NCBI GenBank assembly: GCA_022644775.1
Contig: JALCHN010000009.1
Span: 1-54,863 of the forward strand
Source of the DNA: Eggerthellaceae bacterium
GTDB lineage: Bacteria > Actinomycetota > Coriobacteriia > Coriobacteriales > Eggerthellaceae
Length of the DNA: 54,863 bases
Reading direction: 5' to 3'
This document shows, piece by piece, positions 3,759 through 26,405 of the stretch. Under the pieces are notes generated by a model that saw only the letters and a program-made list of their open reading frames with translations, made no database searches and had not been told where the DNA came from. Position 1 is the stretch's first letter; every line of letters begins with the position of its first letter. The position numbers were made by a program, and so were the translations under genes.

Positions 3759-3835
<77 letters not shown>

Positions 3836-11311: not shown

Positions 11312-11388
<77 letters not shown>

Positions 11389-11672: not shown

Positions 11673-13301
11673 ATGATCACCGACCTGAAGATCAACGAAG
11701 CTTGCAAGCGAACTTACTACGAACGCGGGTACTGGACCACGTCCACCCTCTACGACGCATGGGAGCACAGCGCGCACGCGTTCGCAGGCCGCACCTACGT
11801 GAAAGACGGCGCCACGAGCCTCACCTACGCCCAGGTCGACGACAAGGCCGGCCGCGTGGCCAGCTGGCTGCGCTCGATCGGCGTGGAAAACGGCGACGTC
11901 GTCACCATCCAGCTGCCCAAGTGGGCCGAGTTCACAATCGCCTACGTCGCCTGCTTGAAAGTGGGCGCCGTCATCCACCCGGTCGCCGTGCGCTGGGGCA
12001 CGGGAGATTTGGCCGAAAGCCTCGCCTTCGTGCATTCCGCAGCCTACATCGGGCCCACCTTCTTCCATCGCCGCGATTATGAGGCGGAATTCAACCAGAT
12101 CAAAGCCACGGTCCCCTCGCTTCGGGGCGCCCTGTTCATCGACAAGGAGAAGGACCCCGACGAAGGCGACGTCTCCCTTTCCAACGTGCTCGCCGCCTTC
12201 GAGACGCTCGACGTGCCGCCCGCCTCGACATCCGACGAGGTCGCCTGCATCCTGCCCACCTCGGGCTCTACCGGCACGCCCAAGCAGGTGCTGTTCACCC
12301 ACAACAACATCCTGTTCAGCGAGAAGTCCTACATCTCGGTGCTCGACTTGTCGCCCGACGACGTCATGTGGATGCCCTCCCCGCTCAACCATGCGACGGG
12401 CTTCTTCCATGGGCTCATCTCGGTCATGCTCTTCGGCGGCTCGACCGTGCTGCAGGAAACCTACAAGCCCGCCGACGCCGTCGCGCTCATCCGCCGCGAA
12501 GGCTGCACCTGGTCGCACGGGGCCACCCCCTTCGTCTACGACCTGCTTTCCTACCTCGACCGGTTCGGCGGGGGCCTTCCCAGCATGCGCTTCTATCTGT
12601 GCGGCGGGGCGCCCGTGCCCTCGCGCATGATCGAGCACGCCCATCGCTACGGCATCCTGCTTTCGGAATCCTACGGGTCGACCGAAAGCTGCCCGCACGT
12701 CTACGTGCCGCTCGACAAGGTGCTCGAATGGAACGGCGCCTGGTCGGGCATCCCCTACGAAGGGATCGAGGTGCGCGTGGTCGACAGCCAACATCGCGAA
12801 GTGCCCCGCGGGGTGCAGGGCGAGGAATGCTCGCGCGGGCCCCATCAGTTCGTGGGCTACCTCTACGACAAGGAGCGCACCGACCGCGCGCTCGACGACG
12901 ACGGCTGGTTCTACAGCGGCGACCTGTGCTACATGGACGACGAGGGCCGCATCCGCATCAACGGTCGCAAGAAGGAGATCATCATCCGCGGCGGCGAGAA
13001 CATTTCCGCCGTGGAAGTGGACAACGCCCTGTCGGGCTGCCCGGGCGTGGGAGACCACGCGACGATCGGCATGCCCGACCTGCGCATGGGCGAGCGGATC
13101 TGCACCTTCCTCGTGCCCACCCAAGACGCGCGTCCCACGATCAAAAGCGTGACCGACTACCTCGCCGGTGCCGGCGTCCCCAAGCGAATCTGGCCCGAGC
13201 ACCTGGAATTCATCGACGAGATCCCCTATACGCCCACCGGAAAGGTGCAGCGCTACAAGCTCATGGAAGAGCTCCTGCGCCGTTTGAAAAAGGAGGCCTA
13301 G
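11673..13301 (+). CDS. Acyl-CoA ligase (AMP-forming), CaiC-like
   Basis: Activates a carboxylic acid with ATP and CoA through an acyl-adenylate; cytosolic, about 542 residues. ANL superfamily motifs appear in order: phosphate loop TSGSTGTPK (about 195-203), SYGSTES (about 333), the hinge-region [19 protein letters not shown] (about 411-429), [20 protein letters not shown], and the catalytic lysine of [11 protein letters not shown] (about 522). The start has GGGAGG upstream and drops a 48-residue leader with non-coding character. It heads a plus-strand series with a CaiA-like dehydrogenase and CaiB-like CoA-transferase, which is why CaiC (betaine/carnitine-CoA ligase) is the closest named relative. 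Substrate unknown; a fatty, aromatic or betaine acid is equally possible. Confidence 0.85.
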
Positions 13302-13307
13302 CACGCC

Positions 13308-13946
13308 ATGCCCCAACAGGAATTCAGCCCCACCCGCACCCACGCCACCTGGAAGCCCCGCGTCTTCGACAACGACCTGGCCATCTTCGAATGCCCCAGC
13401 TGCCACCAGGTCCACATCGGCGTGACCGACGGCAGCGACGTCGAATGGACCGGCACCGGCCGCTCGCTCGTGGCCGAGCTGCCCTACGGCAGAAGCGAGG
13501 CGCCCTTCTGCGACCGCTGCGGCACCCGCATGGAGCCCATGCCCATGATCGACGTGGCCGACCTGCCGCCTGAATTCGAGCTCGACTTCCAGTTCCGCGG
13601 GGGCTTCAACAGCAACTGCGTCAAGATCAAATGGTTCTCGAAGGACCGCGAGCTGCGCCCCCAATGGATGGCCGTGAAGACCTTCACCGCCTATCAGGTC
13701 AAGTACGTGCCCGAAAAGAAGTTCTCCCCCGTCACGTTCGCCTTCGCCGACGAGGACGCCTACTGCTACTGCGATTCCGACCCCTGCGAAGAGTGCATGT
13801 TCCGCTGCAAATTCGGCATGTGCGCGTATGTCTTCGTGAAGGGAATCGGCCTCGTGCGGATGTCCTTCGACCGTATGCTCGCGAGCGGATCGGGGTCGGG
13901 AAACGAAGGCTTACGCCGTACGCACGCCGGTTACGTCGACAAGTAG
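13308..13946 (+). CDS. Cysteine-rich protein of unknown function in the redox cluster
   Basis: A 212-residue protein starting six bases after the ligase stop, so surely in the same transcript. It has two CxxC knuckles, CPSC (29-32) and CDRC (68-71), spaced like a split zinc ribbon. A dense second cluster near residues 151-171 (CYCDSDPCEECMFRCKFGMC) has seven cysteines with spacings that could hold zinc or an iron-sulfur centre. No membrane helix, no signal peptide, no recognised catalytic motif. Its place between a CoA ligase and an acyl-CoA dehydrogenase suggests a role in the same pathway: an electron carrier, an acyl-CoA binding adaptor like the OB/zinc-ribbon partners of thiolases, or a metal-bound regulator. 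None of these is shown. Confidence 0.75.
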   Translation: MPQQEFSPTRTHATWKPRVFDNDLAIFECPSCHQVHIGVTDGSDVEWTGTGRSLVAELPYGRSEAPFCDRCGTRMEPMPMIDVADLPPEFELDFQFRGGFNSNCVKIKWFSKDRELRPQWMAVKTFTAYQVKYVPEKKFSPVTFAFADEDAYCYCDSDPCEECMFRCKFGMCAYVFVKGIGLVRMSFDRMLASGSGSGNEGLRRTHAGYVDK

Positions 13947-13983: not shown

Positions 13984-14014
13984 AGGCCCGTGACCTGCGT
14001 CGCGGGCCTTTTCC
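13984..14014 (+). terminator. Terminator after the ligase/cysteine-rich gene pair
   Basis: AGGCCCG stem with CGGGCCT, loop of about 12, then TTTT. It separates the two upstream genes from the CaiA-like gene, which therefore needs its own promoter. Confidence 0.75.
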
Positions 14015-14051: not shown

Positions 14052-14125
14052 CCATAAAACAACCATTGCGAATCGCAATGATTCCCATTCGAAACAGCCG
14101 ATTGAACCAATTGGAAATGCGGCGG
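14052..14125 (+). promoter_or_regulatory. Promoter/operator region of the CaiA-like gene
   Basis: Contains the perfect palindrome ATTGCGA-A-TCGCAAT at 14065-14079 and, just downstream, the small dyad CCAATTGG at 14108-14115. The palindrome has the size of a LysR-type or other dimer site, and a LysR gene sits three genes downstream. The segment CATAAAACAACC just before it has a near copy (CATAAAACCAACC) at 13953. The link to the regulator is inference. Confidence 0.5.
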
Positions 14126-14202: not shown

Positions 14203-15399
14203 ATGAACCCTAACGCGAAAATCACCGACGAGCAGTTCGAGGCGTACCTGAAGCAGGTTCGCGAACTGGTTGAAGGTCCCTTCGACGAAATGCAGAAGGA
14301 GATCGAGGTCACCAACAAGTTCCCGCCGGAATTCTTTGAGCTGGCCAAGAAGAACGACCTCTATCGTTTCTATCTTCCCTCCGAGTACGGTGGATGGGAC
14401 CTCAACGAGCTTGAGATTCTGCGCGTGCAGGAAGAGTTCTCCCGTGGTCCTGGCGGCATGCGCATGCACCTGCATCACGCCGCTGACATGAACTGGCGTA
14501 TTCTTGACGACTACGGTCAGGAAGAAGTCAAGAAGGAACTGATGCCGAAGTTCCAGGACAAGTCCGTCTACTGCAACTTCGCCATCACCGAGCAGACCGG
14601 CGGCACCGGCGCCGACCTGCACACCACCGCTGAGAAGCAGCCCGACGGCTCCTGGATCCTCAACGGCGAGAAGTGGCTCATCTCCCACACGGACTGCTCC
14701 GATTACACCTACGTGATCGCCGTGTCCGACCCGACCAAGGAAAAGGACGACCGTCTGTCCGCCTTCCTGGTCCCCAACGATGCTCCCGGCTTCGAAATCG
14801 TCGAAATGCCCCACATGATGGGCTGCCGCGGCGCCGGCCATGCGGGCCTGAAGTTCACCAACGTGCACATTCCGGCCAAGTACCTGCTCGGCAAGGAAGG
14901 CCAGGGCATGGAAGTGGCCATCCACTCCCTGTCCGTGTCCCGCGTGCACATCGCTATGTCCAACCTCGGCATGGCTCAGCGCATGCTCGAGATCTCCCTC
15001 AAGCGCGCCAATGACCGCGTGACCTTCGGCAAGCCGATCGCCAAGCGCCAGATGATCAAGGCCAAGTTCGCCGAGATGCAGACCTACATCCACGTGCTGC
15101 GCACCGCGATCTACGACTTTGCTCGCGACTACGACATCGACCCGCACAACGAGTACGTCACCGAGAAGGCCGCTATCTGCAAGCTCTTCTCCATCGAGAC
15201 GGTCAAGCTGGTCTCCGACCAGATGCTCGAGATCTTCGGTGGCGACGGCTACTTCGAGGATTCTCCGTACGGCCCGACCGAGCGTCTGTACCGCGACTGC
15301 CGCGCTATGTGGCTCGAGGAAGGCGCGCCGAACGTTCAGCGCATCACGATCGCTCGCGAGTGCCAGAACCATGGCGGCGTGGTCAAGTACAACTTCTAA
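14203..15399 (+). CDS. Acyl-CoA dehydrogenase/enoyl-CoA reductase, CaiA-like
   Basis: FAD enzyme of 398 residues that would add or remove two electrons at the alpha-beta bond of an acyl-CoA, with ETF as partner. AITEQTGGTGADL (near 126-138) and WILNGEKWLISH are the FAD/substrate blocks. RVTFGKPIAKRQMIK is the typical C-terminal helix motif. The catalytic glutamate is at its usual place in AMWLEEGAPNVQR (about 372), while the alternative helix-G position reads VSR, so it uses the common layout. AGAGGAGG precedes the ATG. A terminator on either side makes it a separate unit. Codons such as CGT and TCC are more frequent here than in neighbours, a sign of high expression. CaiA (crotonobetainyl-CoA reductase) is the nearest named relative. 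Confidence 0.87.
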   Translation: MNPNAKITDEQFEAYLKQVRELVEGPFDEMQKEIEVTNKFPPEFFELAKKNDLYRFYLPSEYGGWDLNELEILRVQEEFSRGPGGMRMHLHHAADMNWRILDDYGQEEVKKELMPKFQDKSVYCNFAITEQTGGTGADLHTTAEKQPDGSWILNGEKWLISHTDCSDYTYVIAVSDPTKEKDDRLSAFLVPNDAPGFEIVEMPHMMGCRGAGHAGLKFTNVHIPAKYLLGKEGQGMEVAIHSLSVSRVHIAMSNLGMAQRMLEISLKRANDRVTFGKPIAKRQMIKAKFAEMQTYIHVLRTAIYDFARDYDIDPHNEYVTEKAAICKLFSIETVKLVSDQMLEIFGGDGYFEDSPYGPTERLYRDCRAMWLEEGAPNVQRITIARECQNHGGVVKYNF

Positions 15400-15445: not shown

Positions 15446-15477
15446 AAGGGCTGGTGCGATGCGTGCCGGCCCTTTTT
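15446..15477 (+). terminator. Terminator after the CaiA-like gene
   Basis: GGGCTGG stem with CCGGCCC (one G-U pair) and five T. Lies between the dehydrogenase and CoA-transferase genes. Confidence 0.75.
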
Positions 15478-15506
15478 CCATCAGGGAGATTTTGGAGGAA
15501 TTTCAT

Positions 15507-16751
15507 ATGTCTTTGCCTCTCGAAGGTGTGAAGGTCATCGACCTCACGACGTTTCTTGCCACCCCTACCACGGGCCGCGTGCTCGGCGAGTGGGGCGCCG
15601 ATGTCATCAAGGTCGAAGCTGCCAAGGGCGACCCGACCCGCGTGAACCAGGCTCCCGTCTACGGCATGCCGATGACCGACGATGAGAATCTCGCCTACGA
15701 CATGGCCAACATGCACAAGCGCATGATCAGCCTGAACCTGAAGAGCGAAACCGGCCTGGAAGCGATGAACAAGCTGCTCTCCACCGCCGACATCTTCATC
15801 ACCAACAACCGCACCAAGTCGCTGCGCAAGATGGGCCTCGACTGGGAGAGCCTGCATGCCAAGTACCCGAAGCTGATCATGGGCCACGGCCTGGGCTACG
15901 GCAAGAAGGGCCCCGAAAAGGACGCAGCCGGCTTCGACGTGACCTGCTACATGGGCCGCGGCGGCGTCTTCGGCACTACGGTCGACGCCGATAGCTTCCC
16001 GATGATCCCGACCAACGGCTACGGTGACTTCCAGGCCTCCATGTTCCTGGCCGCCGGCATTCTGGCCGCCTACATCGGCCGCGAGAAGTCCGGCGAGGGC
16101 GACTACGTCACCTGCGCACTGCAGCATGCCGGTATCTACGCCCTGTCCACGGGCATGGTGTCCGCCCAGTACGGCAACCAGTACCCCAAGAGCCGTATGC
16201 GCGTGAACAACCCGCTCAACAACGTCTTCAAGTCCAAGGACGACAAGTGGGTCGTGCTCTGCCTGCCCGAATACGACCGCGACTGGCCGCGCGTCCTGAA
16301 GCTGATCGGCCGCGAGGACCTGCTCGACGGAGCGCATGCCGACCTGGCGAGCATCAACGCCGTCAACGACAAGGACCTCTGCCCGCAGGTTATGCAGATC
16401 CTCGACGAGGGCTTCGGCAAGTTCACCCGCGACGAGCTGCTGAAGATGTTCAAGGAAAACGACATGCCCTGCGAACCTGCGCAGACGCCGGTCGACATCT
16501 ACGAGGACGAGAACGCCATCGTCAACGAGTACATCAAGAAGGTGCACTACGCCAACGGCAACGAGCGCTGGTGCCCCACCGCTCCCGTGCAGTTCGAGCT
16601 GGAAGGCACGGCCGAATTCAAGCCGACCGCCAACTTGGGCGCCGACACCGAAGCCGTCATGAAGGACCTCGGCTACACCGACGAGCAGATCAAGGCTGCC
16701 GAAGAAGACGGCTCCATCAAGGGCGACACGCCCCTGCATGAGCTCATCTAA
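15507..16751 (+). CDS. Class III CoA-transferase, CaiB-like
   Basis: Moves CoA from a product thioester to an incoming free acid, sparing ATP once the pathway is primed by the ligase. The 414-residue protein has the family III fold: MSLPLEGVKVIDLTTFLATP at the N-terminus, then GADVIKVEAAKGDPTR, and the nucleophilic aspartate in AAGFDVTCYMGRGG (about residue 144). The ATG at 15507 has TTGGAGGAA upstream; a 16-residue extension in the same frame lies over the previous terminator and is rejected. Together with the CaiA- and CaiC-like genes this is the core seen in carnitine and gamma-butyrobetaine clusters. No CaiD hydratase is present. Substrate not readable from sequence. Confidence 0.88.
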   Translation: MSLPLEGVKVIDLTTFLATPTTGRVLGEWGADVIKVEAAKGDPTRVNQAPVYGMPMTDDENLAYDMANMHKRMISLNLKSETGLEAMNKLLSTADIFITNNRTKSLRKMGLDWESLHAKYPKLIMGHGLGYGKKGPEKDAAGFDVTCYMGRGGVFGTTVDADSFPMIPTNGYGDFQASMFLAAGILAAYIGREKSGEGDYVTCALQHAGIYALSTGMVSAQYGNQYPKSRMRVNNPLNNVFKSKDDKWVVLCLPEYDRDWPRVLKLIGREDLLDGAHADLASINAVNDKDLCPQVMQILDEGFGKFTRDELLKMFKENDMPCEPAQTPVDIYEDENAIVNEYIKKVHYANGNERWCPTAPVQFELEGTAEFKPTANLGADTEAVMKDLGYTDEQIKAAEEDGSIKGDTPLHELI

Positions 16752-16811: not shown

Positions 16812-16952
16812 TGAGTACCGCCCTACAGCTCGCGCCGTGTTTCATACACACGAAGCCCAAAGCAATGGAAATCTATCGGTAGTGTATATGGTAAGCTTTT
16901 CATGCGAGAGACACAGCGCATTGATGAATCGCATAGCGGCACGGAGGCCTGC

Positions 16953-17861
16953 ATGAATCTATCTCAGCTCCAGTACTTTTGTAAATTAGCCGAATTACAG
17001 CACTACACGCGCGCAGCCGAACAGCTCTATATCACCCAACCCACCCTGTCGAACTCGATTTCCCGATTGGAAGACGAGCTGGGCATTCCCCTTTTCGTGC
17101 GCGACGGCCGCAACGTGCGCCTCACCAAATACGGGGCCGAATTCAACCGCTACGCCAAGCAGGCCCTCATGGCCATCAGCAAAGGCAAAGCGCTCGCCCA
17201 AGACGAAGCCGGCGAGTACACGGGCACCGTTTCGATCGGCACCGTGTATACGATCGAGGACATATTCCTCCCCCACCTGATTAAAGAGTTCCGTGCCGAA
17301 TACGGCCGGGGCCCGGTGATTCACGTGGCGCAGGGCCTTACGAAAACGCTTGCAAAGGGGCTCGAAGACGACACCTACGACCTCATCTTCTGTGCCCTGT
17401 GCTCAGAATACAAAGACTTCCAGTTCGTGCCCGTAGCCCATCAGAGCCTGGCCGTCATCGTACACAGCAGCCACCGTCTCGCCCGCAAGAAGCGCGTGAG
17501 CCTGGCCGACCTGCACGGCGAGCACATCATCACCTATCACTTCGATACGCCGGTGGGACGCGATGTGAAGAAGGTCCTCGACAGCAACTCGCTCACACCG
17601 GCCGAAAAATACGACGACGAGATCACCCTCGCCTCGATGGTCGACGCCGAGCCCAACGCCGTAGGCATCGGGCTCGACACGTTCGGGTTCAGCATCTTCC
17701 CCGACTTGGTGACCATTCCCATTCAGGAAGTGCCCGAAAACTTCCACACTATCTATCTGGCCTACAAGAAAAACAGCTACAAGACACCGGCCGTGCAGCA
17801 CTTCATCGACGTGGCGCAAACCCACCGGCTCGACGAAGAGCCCGAAGAAGCCGCCGTCTAG
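16953..17861 (+). CDS. LysR-type transcriptional regulator
   Basis: A 302-residue DNA-binding regulator. The N-terminal winged helix-turn-helix is textbook LysR (LQYFCKLAELQHYTRAAEQL, then ITQPTLSNSISRLEDELG), followed by the periplasmic-binding-protein-like effector domain (about 90-295). The ATG at 16953 has GGAGG five bases upstream, which rules out a 17-residue extension. It has its own promoter region after a strong terminator and ends with its own terminator. Placed at the end of the CoA-activation genes and facing the transporter, it probably controls this cluster in response to the substrate or its CoA ester. Inverted repeats near the gene (ATACAC and GTGTAT about 30 bp apart, 16843-16886) may be autoregulatory sites. 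Confidence 0.9.
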   Translation: MNLSQLQYFCKLAELQHYTRAAEQLYITQPTLSNSISRLEDELGIPLFVRDGRNVRLTKYGAEFNRYAKQALMAISKGKALAQDEAGEYTGTVSIGTVYTIEDIFLPHLIKEFRAEYGRGPVIHVAQGLTKTLAKGLEDDTYDLIFCALCSEYKDFQFVPVAHQSLAVIVHSSHRLARKKRVSLADLHGEHIITYHFDTPVGRDVKKVLDSNSLTPAEKYDDEITLASMVDAEPNAVGIGLDTFGFSIFPDLVTIPIQEVPENFHTIYLAYKKNSYKTPAVQHFIDVAQTHRLDEEPEEAAV

Positions 17862-18694: not shown

Positions 18695-20050
18695 CTAGTC
18701 CTTCAGCTTGTCCATAGCGCTGTAGCCGAACATGCCCTTGAACTGCTTCGCCAGGTAGAGAGCCATGAGGATGGCCAGAATCGAAGCGAAGAGGAGCAGG
18801 AACATCATGATGTACACAGCGTTGGCCTCGCCGGTCTGGGCGGTCATAGCGCCCACGATGCCGGGCAGGAAGACCGAAGCGGCGCCCATGAACGTGTAGT
18901 ACATACCAACGTTACGACCACGCGGACCGGGAACCATGAGCTGACGCAGCGTAACGCCGGTCTGGAGCATGCCGCCTGCAGCGCCGAAGCCCAGCAGAGC
19001 GATGCCGATGTAGACCGCCACGGAGCCAATGACCAGGCCCACGGCCAGGACGAAGAACAGGCCCACCGCAGCGATGATGGCGTCGACGAGGATAACCTTC
19101 AGCGGGTTCCAGCGCAGCTTGCCCATCATGAACGCCCAGAACAGCACGGCGATGATCGAGCCGGCGGTGTAGATGGACGTCAAGCCGGCAGCAGCAGTCG
19201 GGTCGAGGCCGAGGTTATTGATACCGTAGGCCTTGGAGTACTGCTGAGCGCCGTACATGATGAACATGATCACGAAGCCGTAGAACAGCGTGAGGAAGTT
19301 GGTCATGCCGTTGGCCGGCTTGAGCAGAGCGTCCTTGGCAGCCTGAATCTCGGCTTCGGCGGCGTTCTTGGCCGCGTTCTTGTCGTCGTCGCTGGAAACC
19401 TTCTTCTTGCGCTCGTCGTCGTAGACGAAGGGCGTGAAGATGGCGAAGACAGTCGCGATGATGGACATCACGATCGCGATCCAGACATTGATGTGCCAAT
19501 CACCGGTGTTCGAGGTGGCAACGACCGTGTTGGTCGCCTTGTCGAGCACATGGTTGGCGTTAGCGGCGGCAAACAGCGGGTAGATGATGCCGGAGACCGA
19601 AATGACGGCCTTGATGCCGATCGTGGTAGCACCGGCCTGGCGCGGGTTGGCCTCGGCGATGGCCGGGTACAGAGCGCCGTCCCAGAAGCCCGACGTCGCG
19701 AGGCCGGACAGGAAGCCGGCGACAGCGGCGATCGTGGCGTTGTCGGTGACGAGCATGATTGCGAACGAAATGACGTAGAGGATACCGCCGAGCACTGCGG
19801 GAAGCTTACGGCCGATACGGTCGGAAAGTTCACCGCCCGCCCACACGGAAACGAATTTGCCTACACCAGTCCAGACGATGGCCGTCGAAACGGCGGCAGC
19901 GCCCAGCTTGGGGTCGGTGAAGCCCCACTGCGTGTAGAAGTCAACCTGGTTTTGGCTGAAGATAATTGCCTGAATACCATGCGTCAAATAGCACATATAG
20001 ACGGTGGCAATAGCAAACAAGTACTTCTTAGCCTGTTGTGCAGCACTCAC
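18695..20050 (-). CDS. MFS transporter of the CoA-redox cluster
   Basis: Membrane transporter of 451 residues. The first half carries the MFS motif A between helices 2 and 3 (GGELSDRIGRKLP). A charged cytoplasmic loop of about 40 residues rich in Lys, Asp and Ala separates the halves (around VYDDERKKKVSSDDDKNAA). The GTG start at 20050 has GGAGG six bases upstream. It ends in its own terminator and is preceded by the terminator of the dehydrogenase gene, so it is a single-gene unit. Its place between the LysR gene and the ETF genes suggests uptake of the acid substrate or exchange with the reduced product, standing in for the BCCT carrier CaiT of carnitine clusters. Similar MFS carriers serve oxalate/formate-type exchange; the substrate here is unknown. 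Confidence 0.85.
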   Translation of the reverse strand: MSAAQQAKKYLFAIATVYMCYLTHGIQAIIFSQNQVDFYTQWGFTDPKLGAAAVSTAIVWTGVGKFVSVWAGGELSDRIGRKLPAVLGGILYVISFAIMLVTDNATIAAVAGFLSGLATSGFWDGALYPAIAEANPRQAGATTIGIKAVISVSGIIYPLFAAANANHVLDKATNTVVATSNTGDWHINVWIAIVMSIIATVFAIFTPFVYDDERKKKVSSDDDKNAAKNAAEAEIQAAKDALLKPANGMTNFLTLFYGFVIMFIMYGAQQYSKAYGINNLGLDPTAAAGLTSIYTAGSIIAVLFWAFMMGKLRWNPLKVILVDAIIAAVGLFFVLAVGLVIGSVAVYIGIALLGFGAAGGMLQTGVTLRQLMVPGPRGRNVGMYYTFMGAASVFLPGIVGAMTAQTGEANAVYIMMFLLLFASILAILMALYLAKQFKGMFGYSAMDKLKD

Positions 20051-20316: not shown

Positions 20317-21471
20317 CTAGCGATCGCCCAAGATCATCGGAGCCGCTATGTAGGTCATAATCTCGTCGGTGCCTTCGGAAATCTGGTTCCCGCGGCAATC
20401 TTGCCAGATCCAGCTCACGCGCTCGTCATCGGTGTAGCCGCGGCCGCCGAAAATCTGCAGCGCCGCATCGGCCACCTGCGTGGCCGCCTTGGGCACGTAA
20501 CGCTTCATGAGTGCCACGGTGAGGCGCTTGTCGGGTTCGTCGGCGTCGAAAGACCAGGCCGCATGGTAGACCGCATAGCGCATGTTGCGCAGGGTCACTT
20601 CCATGTCGACAAGCTTTTCCTGAATCTGCTGGAAGGACCCGATGTTCTCTCCAAAGGCCGTGCGGCTGCGGGCATGCTCCACCGCGTCGTCCATGGCCGC
20701 CTGTGCAAGGCCGAGCGACTGGGCGCATACGAGCACGCGCCCCACCTCGAGCATATGGAAGAGCTGCGGGAAACCCGCCTTGGCCGCGCTCGAGAGTCGA
20801 TAGGACTCCTCGACGACCACATGATCGAAGACGACGTCGGAAAAGGGCAGGATCTTCTGCCCCAGCTTGCTGATCGGGTAGGTGCGCACCCCTTCGAGGT
20901 TAAGGGGCACGAGCCAGAAGGACAGGGCCGGGTACTTCCCCTCCGGCGCGTCTCCGTCGATCGCCGCGACCATGACGTAAGGCGCGTACTCGCCGTTGAC
21001 AACGAAGGTCTTGCGGCCGTTCAGCACGAGCTTGCCGTCTTCGGTCTTCACCGTCGTGCGCATCCCCATCGTGTCGCTGCCGGCGTTGGGTTCGGTGACG
21101 GCGAGCGAGAAGATGAGCTTGCCCGACTCGCGATAGGTTTTGTAGGCCGTGTCGAGCTGGGAAGAGGAACCGGCGAACTCGCGCATGATGCGCAGGTTCT
21201 GGGTCTCGTTGGCAAACGGCAGCGAGGTGCCCGCCACGCGCGAGACCTCTTCGTTGACGAGCGCCTGGGCCAGAAGCGAGCCGCCCTTCAGGTTATCGCC
21301 GGAAAGGTCTTTGTGCCGGTAGTAGAGTTCGGCGTAGGCTTTGCCCACCTCGTCGGGAAGGCCCTGGTCATGCTGCCACTGCCGCACGCTCTCACGGGTG
21401 AAGTAGCGAGCCGCGAAATCGTGGAACTCCCCCACCAATTCGCGCTGCTCGGTCGTTAAGCTGAAATCCAT
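20317..21471 (-). CDS. Acyl-CoA dehydrogenase, second copy
   Basis: FAD-dependent enzyme of 384 residues, last gene after fixX. SLAVTEPNAGSDTMGM is the FAD-binding block, RTAFGENIGSFQQIQ the helix motif, and the catalytic glutamate is at residue 366 in QISEGTDEIM; the helix-G position is VGR. So it uses the standard base. The ATG at 21471 has TTGGAGGG upstream; the longer frame to 21597 is not supported. The 133-bp gap to fixX holds a hairpin at 21497-21527. It may act alone or pair with the third dehydrogenase as unlike subunits, since both flank the same ETF genes. Substrate unknown. Confidence 0.87.
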   Translation of the reverse strand: MDFSLTTEQRELVGEFHDFAARYFTRESVRQWQHDQGLPDEVGKAYAELYYRHKDLSGDNLKGGSLLAQALVNEEVSRVAGTSLPFANETQNLRIMREFAGSSSQLDTAYKTYRESGKLIFSLAVTEPNAGSDTMGMRTTVKTEDGKLVLNGRKTFVVNGEYAPYVMVAAIDGDAPEGKYPALSFWLVPLNLEGVRTYPISKLGQKILPFSDVVFDHVVVEESYRLSSAAKAGFPQLFHMLEVGRVLVCAQSLGLAQAAMDDAVEHARSRTAFGENIGSFQQIQEKLVDMEVTLRNMRYAVYHAAWSFDADEPDKRLTVALMKRYVPKAATQVADAALQIFGGRGYTDDERVSWIWQDCRGNQISEGTDEIMTYIAAPMILGDR

Positions 21472-21496
21472 GGTTCCCTCCAAATAAACGCACAGG

Positions 21497-21527
21497 CGGC
21501 AGTCCCCTTGCAAAAGGGGAACTGCCG
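21497..21527 (-). promoter_or_regulatory. Intercistronic hairpin between fixX and acyl-CoA dehydrogenase
   Basis: CGGCAGT plus CCCC pairs with GGGG plus ACTGCCG around eight bases. On the minus strand no T-run follows directly, so it is more likely an RNA processing or stability element than a full terminator. Confidence 0.5.
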
Positions 21528-21604
21528 TCAGCGCGTCGGTGCTCTCCGAACGAATGCGATACGCCAAGCGCGCCGCCCCCAGAGGAACGGCGCGCACGAA
21601 CGTC

Positions 21605-21916
21605 TTATCCGAAACGGTATTCTACGCCCATCGTGGGCTGGGGCATCTCCCATTTCTTCACGATGGTGTCCTCGCAGCAGATGCGGCAGGTCCCGCATTC
21701 CAGGCAGCCGGCGTAGTCGAAGGACTTGTGGCCCTCCTCGTCGACCTTGTAGAGGGCCGCGGGGCACACGCGCACGAGCTTCTGGAACTCCGTGTCGTCG
21801 ACCTCGTCGAGGTTCTCGTGGTCGAGCTCGATGTGGGCGTTCTCCTCGTCGACGTTGTAGTGGTTGAGCGAGATGAGCTCGTCGACGTTGACGGTGATGG
21901 GCTTGAGCTTCTTCAT
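21605..21916 (-). CDS. fixX: Ferredoxin-like protein FixX
   Basis: A 103-residue iron-sulfur protein that partners FixC in passing electrons between ETF and quinone. Cysteines occur as VCPAALY (near residue 51) and CLECGTCRICC (near 71-81), the FixX pattern with one 4Fe-4S centre. PQPTMGVEYRFG at the C-terminus matches the conserved end of the family. Its ATG overlaps the last base of the fixC stop codon (TAATG), so translation is coupled. Confidence 0.92.
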   Translation of the reverse strand: MKKLKPITVNVDELISLNHYNVDEENAHIELDHENLDEVDDTEFQKLVRVCPAALYKVDEEGHKSFDYAGCLECGTCRICCEDTIVKKWEMPQPTMGVEYRFG

Positions 21917-23229
21917 TAGAGTGCTTTCAGAGCTCCCTTCACTTCGCCGAGCAGCTTGAACAGGCCGCGCTGCTTGACAATCGGCATGATGCGCTTATTG
22001 AGGTGCTGGGTCGGCTTGCCGTCGACCACGAACATGGAGTTGAAGATCTCGCCGACCATCTTGGGGTAGTCGGTGAACATGCGGTGCCAGTTCTCCATGG
22101 TCTCGGGCCACAGGGCGTAGGTCTTGAGGTCCTGGATGACGAAGGAGTCGTCCATCTTCGTGCGGTAGGAGGCCAGGCCCGCCTTGGAGACGTCGCCGGC
22201 GTCGATCGCGTCGCAGGCGGCCTCGGCGGCCAGGCGGCCGGATTCCACGGCCAGGTCCATGCCGCGCACCATGTAGCCCAGGTTCATGCAGAGGTTTGCG
22301 GCGTCGCCGGCGACCAGGCAGCCGTCGAAGACGAGCTCGGGAATCGAGTTGTAGCCGCCCTCGGAGACCATGTGGCCGGAGTGCTCGGAGAGCGTCGCGC
22401 CCTTGATGATCGGCGCCACGCTCGGGTGCTTCTTGAAGTCGTCGAGCATCTGGTAGATCGTCGTGTCGGACTGGGAGAGGTCCTCGATCGTGGCCACGAG
22501 GCCCAGCGAGATGGACTCCTTGTTGGTGTAGAGGAAGCCGCCGCCCGTGTAGCCGTGCGTCGCGTCGCCGGCCCAGAGCATGGCCGCGCCCTCGCCCTCG
22601 TTGCACAGGAACCGGGACTCGATCTCCTCGGCGGGGAGCTCGAAGACCTCCTTGATGCCCACGGCCATCGCGTCGCGCTTGGAACGGGGGTTGCCGAGCT
22701 CGCGCTCGCTGATCAGGGAGTTCTGGCCCTCGGCGTCGATGACGACCTGGGCGGTGATCTCGTCGCCGCCGGCCTCGATGCCGTAGACCTTGCCCGCGTC
22801 GTCCTTCAGGAGGTGCTCGACCGCGATGCCGTTGATGAACTCGGCGCCCGCGTCCTCGGCCTGCTCGGCCAGCCACTGGTCGAACTCGGCGCGCAGGACC
22901 GAGTAGGAGTCGCGACCGTCGACGCCGAGCTCGTCGCTCGTGAAGTCGATGGTCATGCTGCTCGCGGGGTCGAGCAGGCTGATGCGCTCGTGGGTGATCT
23001 TGCGCTCGTAGGGGATGTCCTCCGTGGTGATCTCGCCCTCGGAGTAGTCGTCGAAGACGCGCTTCAGCGAATGGGCGTAGATGCGGCCGCCGGTCATGTT
23101 CTTGGCGCCCGCGTACTCGCCGCGCTCGACGACCAGCACCGACTTGCCCTTCTTCGCCGCCACGTAGGCCGCGATTGCGCCGGCGCACCCGGCGCCGATC
23201 ACGATGATGTCGAAATCGGTGTCTGCCAT
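21916..23229 (-). CDS. fixC: ETF:quinone oxidoreductase FixC
   Basis: Flavoprotein of 437 residues that links ETF to the membrane quinone pool. The dinucleotide-binding motif GAGCAG is at residues 12-17 with VLVVERG closing the fold; the second FAD block is LVAGDAANLCMNLGYMVRGMD (around 307-327). With FixA, FixB and FixX it completes a FixABCX set as found with carnitine and nitrogen-fixation pathways. In some bacteria that set bifurcates electrons between quinone and ferredoxin; here direction and bifurcation cannot be told. Starts 90 bp after fixB, across a hairpin at 23255-23283. Confidence 0.93.
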   Translation of the reverse strand: MADTDFDIIVIGAGCAGAIAAYVAAKKGKSVLVVERGEYAGAKNMTGGRIYAHSLKRVFDDYSEGEITTEDIPYERKITHERISLLDPASSMTIDFTSDELGVDGRDSYSVLRAEFDQWLAEQAEDAGAEFINGIAVEHLLKDDAGKVYGIEAGGDEITAQVVIDAEGQNSLISERELGNPRSKRDAMAVGIKEVFELPAEEIESRFLCNEGEGAAMLWAGDATHGYTGGGFLYTNKESISLGLVATIEDLSQSDTTIYQMLDDFKKHPSVAPIIKGATLSEHSGHMVSEGGYNSIPELVFDGCLVAGDAANLCMNLGYMVRGMDLAVESGRLAAEAACDAIDAGDVSKAGLASYRTKMDDSFVIQDLKTYALWPETMENWHRMFTDYPKMVGEIFNSMFVVDGKPTQHLNKRIMPIVKQRGLFKLLGEVKGALKAL

Positions 23230-23254
23230 CCGATTCCTCCCTTTCTCAAACGAA

Positions 23255-23283
23255 GGGGGCGAGGCGCACGCGTCCTCGCCCCC
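23255..23283 (-). promoter_or_regulatory. Intercistronic hairpin between fixB and fixC
   Basis: GGGGGCGAGG pairs with CCTCGCCCCC (loop CGCACGCGT region), followed on the minus strand by TTCGTTTG. Could be a weak terminator that sets the ratio of ETF to FixCX. Confidence 0.55.
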
Positions 23284-23319
23284 GTTGATGTTCAGCTCGG
23301 CGCTGGGGCCGCGCAGTGC

Positions 23320-24207
23320 CTACAGGGCAGCGGTCAGGGCCGGCAGGACGGTCTTGAGGTCGCCCACGAAGCCGTAGTCGCACGCCTTGAAGACCGGGGC
23401 GTTCTTGTCCTTGTTGACGGCCACGATGACGTCGGCGCCGTTGCAGCCGACCATGTGCTGCATCTGGCCGGAGATGCCCACCGCGACGTAGACCTTCGGG
23501 GAGACCACCGCGCCGGACACGCCGACGTAGGCCTCGCGGGGGAACCAGTCGACGCCCTCGGCCAGGGGACGGGAGCAGGCGAGCTCGGCGCCCAGCTTGG
23601 CGGCCAGGTCGCGGGCCAGCTGCAGGTCCTCTTCGGCGCCGAAGCCGCGGCCGCAGGCCACGATCGCGTCGGCGCCCGCCAGGTTGACGTCGCTGGGCGG
23701 CAAGGCCTCGGAGCCGGTCTTGGCGACGGCGTTCTCGGGCGCCTCGAAGGCGGCCTCTTCCACGGCGTCGGTGCCGGTGGCCTCGGAGGCGTCGAAGACG
23801 CCCGGGCCGAAGGTGTAGACGGCCACGTCGCCGGCGGCCTTGGCCTCGCGGACGCCCGTGCCGCCGAAGTACATCGAGGTGGCCACGCCGCCCTCGACGG
23901 CGCTCACACCGGTGATCGCCGCGGCGCCGAGCTTGGCGGCCAGACGGCCGACCAGCGACAGGGCGCGCAGGGTCTGCTCGCCCAGGACCACGTCGCCGCC
24001 CTCGGCGTCGTAGATCTTGTTGACGGTGACGTAGGCGTCGTCGGCGATGTTGCCGGCGGGCACGTCGATGTGGAAGGACTTGTCGGCAGCGCCCGAGACG
24101 GGGGCGCCGACGGAGACGAGGACGACCTCGTCGGCGAGCTTGCGCGCGCCGGCGCACAGCTCGCGAGCGCCGTTCTCGGTTTCAGCGATAACGAATGCCT
24201 TGGACAT
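23320..24207 (-). CDS. fixB: Electron transfer flavoprotein alpha subunit
   Basis: ETF alpha subunit of 295 residues, cytosolic partner of FixA; carries electrons between acyl-CoA dehydrogenases and FixCX. The C-terminal FAD domain is clear: CSRPLAEGVDW, then AYVGVSGAVVSPKVYVAVG and ISGQMQHMVGC, with VIVAVNKDKNAPVFKACDYG near the end. Starts 18 bp after fixA, same transcript. Codon use is strongly biased to GC-ending codons, as in highly expressed genes. Confidence 0.94.
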   Translation of the reverse strand: MSKAFVIAETENGARELCAGARKLADEVVLVSVGAPVSGAADKSFHIDVPAGNIADDAYVTVNKIYDAEGGDVVLGEQTLRALSLVGRLAAKLGAAAITGVSAVEGGVATSMYFGGTGVREAKAAGDVAVYTFGPGVFDASEATGTDAVEEAAFEAPENAVAKTGSEALPPSDVNLAGADAIVACGRGFGAEEDLQLARDLAAKLGAELACSRPLAEGVDWFPREAYVGVSGAVVSPKVYVAVGISGQMQHMVGCNGADVIVAVNKDKNAPVFKACDYGFVGDLKTVLPALTAAL

Positions 24208-24225
24208 ATCTGATCAAACCTTTCC

Positions 24226-24969
24226 CTAGAGAGCGGCCTTGACGGCGGCTGCGAACGCGTCGACGTCGTCGAACATTTCCTTCTTGCGGTCGACCTCGGC
24301 CGGGGCCTTGACGGAGACCTCTTCGACGGCCTTGGCCGGAGCGCCCTCGGCGCCCTCGACGTTCATCGGCTTCTTGCCGGCGGCCAGGATGTCCTTCATG
24401 CCGGCGATGCGGGGCTCGGCGAATTCGGGGGCCACGGACACGACGGCGGGAAGAGGCACTTCCACGGTTTCCTCTTCGCTCTCGAGCAGGCGCTTGGCCA
24501 CGAGCTTGCCGTCGGCGGCTTCCGCGGAGACGACCCCGGAGACGAAGGGCACGCCGAGCTTGGCGGCCAGCTGCACGCCGGTCTGCTTGGCGTAGAGGTC
24601 GGCCGAGCCGTCGCCGGTGACGATGACGTCCCAATCGCCGGCCTTGGCGGCGAGCTTGGCGAGTTCGGCGGCCGTCGCGAAGGCGTCGAGGCCGTCGAGG
24701 GCGTCGTCGGCGGCGAGGAAGAGCTCGTCGACGCCGCGGGCGAGGATGTTCTTCTTGGTCTTGGAGTCGTCGGCCTTCTTCGGGCCCACGGAGATGGCCT
24801 TGACGGTGGAGCCGTCGTTGGCGGCGGCGATCTGGGCCGCGGCCTCGATGGCGTTCAGGTCGTAGGTGGAAACGACCTTGTGGGCGCGGGAGAAGTCGAG
24901 GGAGCCGTCGCCGGCGACCTTGACGTCCTGATCGTCGGGGACGATCTTGCATGCCACGAGAATGTTCAT
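24226..24969 (-). CDS. fixA: Electron transfer flavoprotein beta subunit
   Basis: ETF beta subunit of 247 residues. N-terminal NILVACKIVPDDQDVKV is the usual start of the family. VISVAPEF-type strand and EPRIAGMKDILAAGKKP contain the recognition loop and the conserved EPR motif that contacts dehydrogenases. It is first of the fixA-fixB-fixC-fixX-dehydrogenase series. The upstream gap of 277 bp from the third dehydrogenase holds a strong hairpin, so fixA may have its own promoter. The extended reading to 25120 is out of frame with the family and is rejected. Confidence 0.94.
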   Translation of the reverse strand: MNILVACKIVPDDQDVKVAGDGSLDFSRAHKVVSTYDLNAIEAAAQIAAANDGSTVKAISVGPKKADDSKTKKNILARGVDELFLAADDALDGLDAFATAAELAKLAAKAGDWDVIVTGDGSADLYAKQTGVQLAAKLGVPFVSGVVSAEAADGKLVAKRLLESEEETVEVPLPAVVSVAPEFAEPRIAGMKDILAAGKKPMNVEGAEGAPAKAVEEVSVKAPAEVDRKKEMFDDVDAFAAAVKAAL

Positions 24970-25246: not shown

Positions 25247-26405
25247 CTAGGCGTCGGCGTACTTCTTGGCGACCTGGCGGCCGCAGATATAGGCCATGAT
25301 CTCGTGCGTGCCGCCGCCGAACATGTTGCCGCGAGCGTCGGCCCAGAGACGGCCCACGCGCACCTCGGTGGTGTAGCCCAGACCGGCGTAAATCTGCAGC
25401 GCCATGTCGATGACGTTGAAGCATTCCTTGCAACCGTAGCGCTTGAGCATGGCGCTCTCGAGCTGGACGGGCTGGTCGTTGTCCATCATCCACAGGGTCT
25501 TGTAGAGGAGCTGACGGGTAGTCTGCACCTTGATCTCCATGTCGGTGAGAAGCTCCTGAATCATCTCCTGCTTGTAGAGGGGCTTGCCGAAGGCGATGCG
25601 CTGGTTGGCGTACTTAGCGGCGTCTTCCAGAGCGGCCTGGGCCAGGCCCACCTGCTCGGCGACGATGTAGGCGCGCTCGACTTCGAAGTTCTTCATGAGC
25701 ATCATGAAGCCCTTGCCCGGCTCGCCCATGCGCTGGTCTTCGGTGAGGACGACGTCGTCGAAGTAGACTTCGCAGAAGGGGATGCACTGCTGGCCGATCT
25801 TGTGCAGCGGAGCGGTGGACACGCCCGGGGGTGTCCATCTTGAGCAGCCACAGCGACATGTCGCCGTTGTCATGGCTGGGGTCTTCGTCCTTGGCCACCA
25901 CGATCGTGTAAGGAAGCACGGCGCCCATGGTCACCCAGGTCTTCTGGCCGGACAGAACGTAGGTGCCGTCGGCCTGCTTCTTGGTGACGCAGGTCATCGA
26001 ACGGTTGTCGGAACCGGCGCCCGGCTCGGAGATGGACAGCGAGGAGATGGGCCAGCCGGTCTCCATGTAGTGGTCCATGGCCTGCTGCTTCTGCTCGTCG
26101 GTGCCGAACTCCATGATGTCGAACATCGACAGGGAGTTCTGGTAGAGGATATGCATGCAGCCGGACTTCTGGTACAGGCGCTCGATCATGAGGCCGATGG
26201 TCAGACGGTCGGCAGGGATTCCGCCGTACTCTTCGGGGATGCCCATGAGGCCGAAACCGGCATCGCGGTAAGCTTCGGCGATCTCGTCGGGCATGCCGCC
26301 CTTTTCGTACATCTCGGCGATGACGTCGTCGGTGAAGTAGCGCTCGCAGAACTCGTCAACGCTCTCCAGCAGAAGCTCCTGCTCGTCGGTCAGATTAAAG
26401 TCCAT
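25247..26405 (-). pseudogene. Acyl-CoA dehydrogenase, third copy, with one-base frameshift
   Basis: Two overlapping frames together give a full acyl-CoA dehydrogenase of about 385 residues. Residues 1 to about 194 read in one frame (MDFNLTDEQELLLESVDEF to LLKMDTPG) and the rest in another (VSTAPLHKIGQQ to KKYADA). The break is at a run of five C on the coding strand (25827-25831); four C would restore one frame. The SLSISEPGAGSDNRSM and RIAFGKPLYKQEMIQ blocks are intact on each side and the protein shows no other decay, so a sequencing slip or a slippery, phase-variable site is as likely as a dead gene. The usual catalytic glutamate is glycine (GGGTHEIM), but a glutamate sits in helix G (NFEVERAYIV), as in isovaleryl-CoA and long-chain dehydrogenases. 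Confidence 0.85.

Follow-up and report, generated by a model that had tools for sequence, protein, structure and literature searches.

The 212-residue protein encoded at 13308–13946 on the forward strand, for which we use the label SORL, almost certainly has the desulfoferrodoxin/superoxide reductase (SOR) fold, and sequence comparison suggests that it is a previously undescribed form of this known fold from which the site of a working SOR is missing. The evidence also leaves us with hardly any doubt that SORL is linked to an acyl-CoA pathway. The fold, the loss of the histidine ligands, the invariance of four cysteines, and the genomic linkage were each established computationally. Our literature searches, partial in their coverage of the sources, returned no published account of the family. 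Coordinates refer to the window, that is, the whole stretch of 54,863 nucleotides that was analysed, and its features are collected in table 1.

Table 1. Features of the SORL locus and its surroundings in the window
Feature	Position	Strand	Basis
SORL, protein of the SOR fold lacking the SOR iron site	13308..13946	+	ORF, homologues, profile and fold searches
N-terminal desulforedoxin/zinc-ribbon-like region, codons 29–71 (C29, C32, C68, C71), unconserved in the SORL family	13392..13520	+	Cysteine column counts; weak Desulfoferrod_N matches
SOR-like immunoglobulin-type domain, codons about 85–187	13560..13868	+	AlphaFold model; VIA Z 9.8 to 1y07
Four-Cys loop C-x4-C-x2-C-x3-C, codons 155–167	13770..13808	+	Invariant 44/44 with Sporomusa
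AMP-binding CoA ligase, opening the ligase-SORL pair; GGAGG precedes its start at 11673	11673..13301	+	PF00501 1.5e-71; PRK06087 763 bits, cut-off 736
Hairpin and T-run after SORL and before ACD, probable intrinsic terminator	13984..14013	+	Consensus pattern
Near-perfect palindrome AACCATTGCGA-a-TCGCAATGATT upstream of ACD, candidate operator	14061..14083	.	Similar one in L035
Acyl-CoA dehydrogenase family enzyme (ACD), subfamily tracking SORL	14203..15399	+	Family and subfamily searches
Class III (CaiB-type) CoA-transferase, start perhaps 15507	15459..16751	+	PF02515 1.8e-79
LysR-type regulator	16902..17861	+	Family search
MFS transporter, divergent	18695..20050	-	Family search
Second ACD, FixX-like ferredoxin, FixC-like flavoprotein, EtfA, EtfB	20317..24969	-	Context

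The open reading frame begins with ATG, has AAGGAGG ahead of its start, and is separated by 6 nt from the stop codon of the ligase gene (end 13301). Homologues with identities as low as about 35% show that it is a coding sequence. A first-pass annotation had described a soluble, cysteine-rich protein of this length, tightly coupled to the ligase, and that description stands. It was also right about the eleven cysteines (residues 29, 32, 68, 71, 104, 153, 155, 160, 163, 167, and 172) and the two CxxC knuckles (29/32 and 68/71), but its seven-cysteine C-terminal patch comprises six (153–172), the eleventh being C104 in the middle of the protein. With the other 42 called proteins of the window as background, the binomial chance of at least 11 cysteines in 212 residues is 7e-4, and the densest cluster of SORL, six cysteines in 20 residues, compares with a maximum of five among those 42 proteins. 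As read from the aligned sequences, the conservation of C155, C160, C163, and C167 is a stronger argument for a real pattern than cysteine content. These four residues are invariant in 43/43 family homologues, and in 44/44 sequences when a homologue from Sporomusa termitida is added. The remaining cysteines vary among the 43 homologues: C29, C32, and C68 are each present in 26, C104 in 17, C71 in 16, C153 in 12, and C172 in 4, and two members (L044 and L068) have no cysteine besides those of the loop. Because only the loop cysteines are invariant, we regard the four-Cys loop as the core of the protein and the N-terminal CxxC knuckles, pointed out in the first-pass annotation, as optional.

The same annotation could place the protein in no family. 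This holds for Pfam and NCBIfam, where the SORL query returned no family at E 1; the query likewise had no match in PHROGs, and phmmer with the single sequence had none in the PDB. Profile, hhalign, and model searches do, however, place it in the desulfoferrodoxin/SOR fold. With a profile of 30 SORL members, the first match in the PDB was the SOR of T. pallidum, 1y07 (E 3.2e-4), followed by antibody chains (0.025), and hhalign of this profile against one of 17 canonical SORs of the same bacteria gave 98.4% (E 1.1e-14) over both domains. The AlphaFold model of SORL (pLDDT 81.5) matched 1y07 in Foldseek (E 6.8e-6) and in VIA (Z 9.8, 118 aligned residues, 2.9 Å, model residues 21–186), where 1dfx followed with Z 9.1 and the first unrelated row stood at 7.6. 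A second model, of the member L068 with only the four loop cysteines (pLDDT 83.3), again found 1y07 in Foldseek (E 2.8e-4) and as the best VIA match (Z 9.2, first unrelated row 5.5). Of the top 15 VIA rows for L068, 14 are titled SOR or desulfoferrodoxin and one hypothetical protein PH1083; families missing from VIA-align lists are not thereby excluded. Among sequence models of the fold, Desulfoferrod_N gave weak matches in 4/30 members (best 0.002), and PF01880 matched neither the query at E 1 nor any SORL place at E 0.001 in a search of 138 family genomes.

The site at which SORs bind iron is missing from SORL. For these enzymes, the motif given for centre II is HX5H-CX2H and that for centre I is CX2CX15CC (PMC3116461). 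By regular expression, HX5H...CX2H fits 17/17 canonical SORs and 1/44 SORL sequences, and the CX2H (CGKH) of this sole fit, L037, lies away from the loop and off the aligned cysteine. The centre I motif, which belongs to the Dx-SOR class only, is found in 17/17 canonical SORs and 0/44 SORL sequences (a looser CxxC...CC in 11/44), whereas the four-Cys loop is found in 44/44 and 0/17, respectively, of the SORL and canonical sequences. In the hhalign alignment, Cys116 of SOR, the axial ligand, is paired with C155 of SORL, and the HPM..H loop of SOR falls on a gap or on unrelated residues. The residue three positions after the aligned cysteine is never His in the 29 SORL sequences listed, and no column of the family (n=43) has His in 40% of rows. 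Thus, the candidate role of a working SOR was dropped, given that the His ligands are gone from the aligned site, no His-rich column exists, and the iron-ligand motif is missing. We consider it very likely that SOR chemistry has been lost. A canonical SOR is encoded in 123/138 family genomes, that of the window among them, so the superoxide job is already covered.

Compared with the Dx-SORs of T. pallidum (1y07, class III) and D. desulfuricans (1dfx), SORL shares the two-domain fold over nearly its whole length and a cysteine at the axial iron-ligand place; in 2Fe-SORs, this fold joins an immunoglobulin-type sandwich to a Dx-like N-terminal domain. It differs in having no HX5H, no CX2H at the aligned cysteine, and no CX2CX15CC, and in having three extra invariant cysteines, a larger N-terminal region, and a place in acyl-CoA gene clusters. 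Methanoferrodoxin, a class IV SOR, combines the SOR site with an iron-sulfur domain (PMC3116461). As described there, it resembles SORL in adding cysteines to the SOR fold, and those of SORL could likewise bind an iron-sulfur cluster, but methanoferrodoxin keeps the SOR active site that SORL lacks. Five desulfoferrodoxins from several genomes of the same bacterial family (L184, L186, L187, L189, and L190) carry an HTH-like N-terminal region of the HTH-Dx-SOR type as read from sequence; HTH-fused SORs are a known class (PMC3116461).

In both models, confidence is low at the four-Cys loop (block pLDDT 55–70). A loop profile found only chance alphaRep matches, outside the cysteines, in the PDB and three weak, single-member matches in Pfam, and no relative of the loop in either database. 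The spacing CX4CX2C resembles plant-type [2Fe-2S] loops, and compact four-Cys zinc loops exist in alcohol dehydrogenases. A housekeeping zinc-ribbon family, which the first-pass annotation had named as the match that would speak against a new component, was looked for and gave no confident match: zinc-ribbon models hit at most 4/30 members weakly (best 5.7e-5, judged on E-values and not curated cut-offs) and the query not at all at E 1. A plain housekeeping zinc ribbon was set aside because the CxxC knuckles are unconserved.

We found 43 SORL homologues in 39/138 genomes of Eggerthellaceae, from 17/48 genera, and a profile of the four-Cys loop alone recovered the same 43 places in those 138 genomes and no others. 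The genome of the window has another copy, 57% identical and likewise placed between ligase and ACD, and the nearest named relative is in Hugonella massiliensis AT8 (94%). Among 396 genomes drawn across the phylum, no SORL was found outside Eggerthellaceae, and the five weak matches examined from this search are canonical SORs. A search of 297 genomes of the order yielded one strong partial match in another family (G536), which is cut by a contig end and shares its contig with CaiB and ACD genes. Phage and viral contig searches found none. The only match among plasmids is on Sporomusa termitida plasmid NZ_CP036260.1, from another phylum, where a protein annotated as 'hypothetical protein' is 32% identical (E 1e-28).

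The gene neighbourhoods connect SORL with CoA metabolism, as the first-pass annotation had proposed. An ACD, CaiB, or ligase gene lies near SORL at 40/43 loci, compared with 3/40 control stretches, where the neighbour profiles were built from the SORL loci themselves and the window was counted over its whole 54.9 kb and the other 42 loci over 10–19.5 kb; scattered homologues without CoA neighbours, looked for as evidence against the connection, are therefore not the pattern. At least two of the three genes are present at 35/43 loci, and all three at 32/43, compared with 0/40 controls. The 40 controls came from large contigs of 20 of the 39 SORL genomes and were placed at fixed fractions of these contigs, with positions shifted in G070, G003, and G102 to avoid SORL loci. 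A ligase is the immediate upstream gene on the same strand at 21/43 loci, while ligases make up 2/589 control genes; genes were called with a home-made caller, and close relatives among the loci are not independent.

The ACD of the window belongs to a subfamily with 66 places in 46/138 genomes, whose members are 66–100% identical, the next ACDs in the fetched loci being at 29%. This subfamily occurs in 38/39 SORL genomes (Fisher 7e-25, a value that ignores shared ancestry); the ligase subfamily, present in 47/138 genomes, also occurs in 38/39. For ACDs at 85% identity or more, SORL lies within 2.8 kb in 16/16 cases, and it lies within 5 kb of 2/14 ACDs at 75–85% and 17/36 at 60–75%. In a tree of the ACDs, all 17 rows of a supported clade surrounding the window are SORL-linked and there are 4 label changes versus 13.9 in shuffles, both results being biased by rows partly chosen by SORL. 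Across genera the ACD is far more conserved (85–92%) than its ligase and SORL neighbours, which may reflect horizontal transfer or a strict substrate.

The association has exceptions. A subfamily ACD or ligase lies within 5 kb of only 28/43 SORL genes. In eight genomes, members of the ligase and ACD subfamilies occur but SORL does not, and their fetched loci yielded no diverged copy, including L201, which has no gene calls and was negative by six-frame search; SORL is therefore not needed for every such ACD. The SORL genes at L041, L042, L047, and L050 adjoin other genes, and L068–L070 (genus g2) stand apart. In the former four, all of genus g4, SORL is apart from ligase and ACD; an enoyl-CoA-hydratase-like gene lies divergently beside it, and the gene maps show a CopA-like gene downstream. 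In Sporomusa termitida, SORL directly follows an ACD gene whose product is 67% identical to the window ACD, and is followed by a convergent LysR gene and MFS genes; further along are CaiB, UbiD, a second ACD (29%), and EtfBA, and no ligase gene is annotated in the 24.5 kb fetched. Since L072, L074, and L075 share this order of ACD, SORL, and opposite-strand LysR, the ACD, and not the ligase, is the most constant partner. The expectation that homologues always lie beside the same ligase was not borne out, and the ligase as an obligate partner is weakened by its position directly upstream at only 21 loci, by the Sporomusa stretch, and by the 28/43 count within 5 kb.

Within the window, the hairpin and T-run after SORL imply that ligase and SORL probably form one transcript and ACD and CaiB another, as judged from consensus patterns. 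Comparable hairpins between SORL and ACD are present in L034 and L036, and the same rule found none in L037 and L038. A search of the window with the palindrome upstream of ACD gave 2 matches versus 2.2 expected, and without a good second copy it shows no regulon. Two tRNA-Asp (gtc) genes lie 7.5 kb apart on the reverse strand (3759–3835 and 11312–11388), the second just upstream of the ligase-SORL pair. Also on the reverse strand, an acyl-CoA dehydrogenase at 25247–26405 is split into one ORF with the N and middle domains (25614–26405) and another with the C domain (25247–25873), by a frameshift, pseudogene formation, or sequencing error.

Two known systems have a similar composition. The cai operon consists of CaiA, CaiB, and CaiC, and the window likewise combines ACD, class III CoA-transferase, and CoA ligase. 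The window ACD scores 129.7 bits against an equivalog cut-off of 540 for crotonobetainyl-CoA dehydrogenase, however, and the transferase 116.6 against 413 for carnitine CoA-transferase, both far under. We know of no SOR-fold gene in cai operons. The bbu cluster of Emergencia timonensis similarly groups genes for an ACD, for CaiB-type transferases, and for a small protein with cysteines (PMC8364193). That protein, bbuD, is described as a di-[4Fe-4S] ferredoxin and is the only small redox protein named in the available text (PMC8364193). SORL is instead an SOR-fold protein, and the window cluster includes an AMP-binding ligase; the earlier suggestion that SORL would be new relative to bbu agrees with this account.

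With respect to the substrate, the ligase exceeds the PRK06087 equivalog cut-off in NCBIfam, and its second match, cyclohexanecarboxylate-CoA ligase, is under cut-off. Among named families there, the ACD comes closest to acryloyl-CoA reductase and cyclohexane-1-carbonyl-CoA dehydrogenase but falls far short of either cut-off. Acyl-CoA reductases and dehydrogenases of such kinds use ETF. At L045 (10274–12011) and L048, the SORL cluster continues into genes that read from sequence as dehydroquinate dehydratase-like and shikimate dehydrogenase-like, a hint of quinate- or shikimate-type substrates, and a UbiD gene lies near the Sporomusa SORL. That the substrate is an aromatic or hydroaromatic acid is a reasonable conjecture at most.

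We tentatively propose, with confidence just short of even, that SORL is a metalloprotein accessory to an acyl-CoA reductase pathway, in which it would act as an electron relay. A desulfoferrodoxin would have been repurposed such that the two-domain SOR fold was kept, the Fe(His)4Cys superoxide site disappeared, and the old axial cysteine, C155, became part of a new compact site, C155/C160/C163/C167. In this pathway, an ACD of one subfamily would work alongside a CoA ligase, a CaiB-type transferase, or both, and a LysR regulator and an MFS transporter would complete the set. The four cysteines would hold one iron or iron-sulfur centre, which would pass electrons between the ACD flavin and either ETF or low-potential carriers of the cell, and the ACD would reduce (or dehydrogenate) a CoA thioester. 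We infer a single metal centre on the four cysteines, its redox activity, and the ACD as physical partner; one centre is argued from four invariant cysteines within 13 residues, in a soluble redox fold encoded beside a flavoenzyme. Against a relay, the nearby ETF and FixCX genes could supply electrons without SORL, the gene closest to SORL in the window encodes a ligase, which is no redox enzyme, and a likely terminator stands between SORL and ACD. Less assured, though conceivable, is the fuller version in which evolution converted the mononuclear Fe(His)4Cys site, without moving it within the fold, to an iron-sulfur or Fe(Cys)4 centre. An oxygen-defence enzyme would thereby have become an electron carrier dedicated to one ACD subfamily, with which gut anaerobes of two phyla would process dietary or aromatic acids.

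A close rival, somewhat doubtful in our judgement, is that the four cysteines bind structural zinc and stabilise the loop, while the beta-sandwich scaffolds the ligase, ACD, and CoA-transferase or guides the CoA thioester. Such an adaptor would suit the ligases directly upstream at 21/43 loci, several with the 4-nt overlaps or few-nt gaps typical of coupled partners, as well as the rapid divergence of the rest of SORL (43–49% identity to the window where the ACD has 85–87%), the zinc-ribbon-like N-terminal region in part of the family, and the precedent of the alcohol dehydrogenase loop. Yet the ancestral site was a redox iron site of which one ligand is kept, and the Sporomusa neighbour is an ACD with no annotated ligase in 24.5 kb. 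We therefore regard the electron relay as more likely than the zinc adaptor. It is improbable that SORL is a redox, oxygen, or metal sensor whose centre alters the activity of the LysR regulator or the ACD. LysR is the opposite-strand downstream neighbour at 18/43 loci, the same-strand upstream gene encodes TetR at 4/43 and LysR at 4/43, and HTH-fused SORs occur in the same bacterial family, but family searches found no DNA-binding domain in SORL and the LysR neighbours fit ordinary pathway regulation. Finally, although the SOR fold would suit a superoxide or peroxide scavenger shielding an oxygen-sensitive flavoenzyme, the loss of all four His ligands from the aligned site, the lack of any column with His in 40% of rows, and the canonical SOR in 123/138 genomes, that of the window included, make this role highly improbable.

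To our knowledge, the SOR fold family proper is known only as oxygen-defence proteins, and an annotation of SORL from its fold alone would mislead. A protein that dropped its catalytic ligands, gained invariant cysteines, and entered acyl-CoA clusters would be a case of one active site replacing another within a single fold. For the Eggerthellaceae, SORL would be a testable missing component of CoA-dependent acid metabolism, and our findings suggest that an old fold has taken on a new role in anaerobic metabolism.
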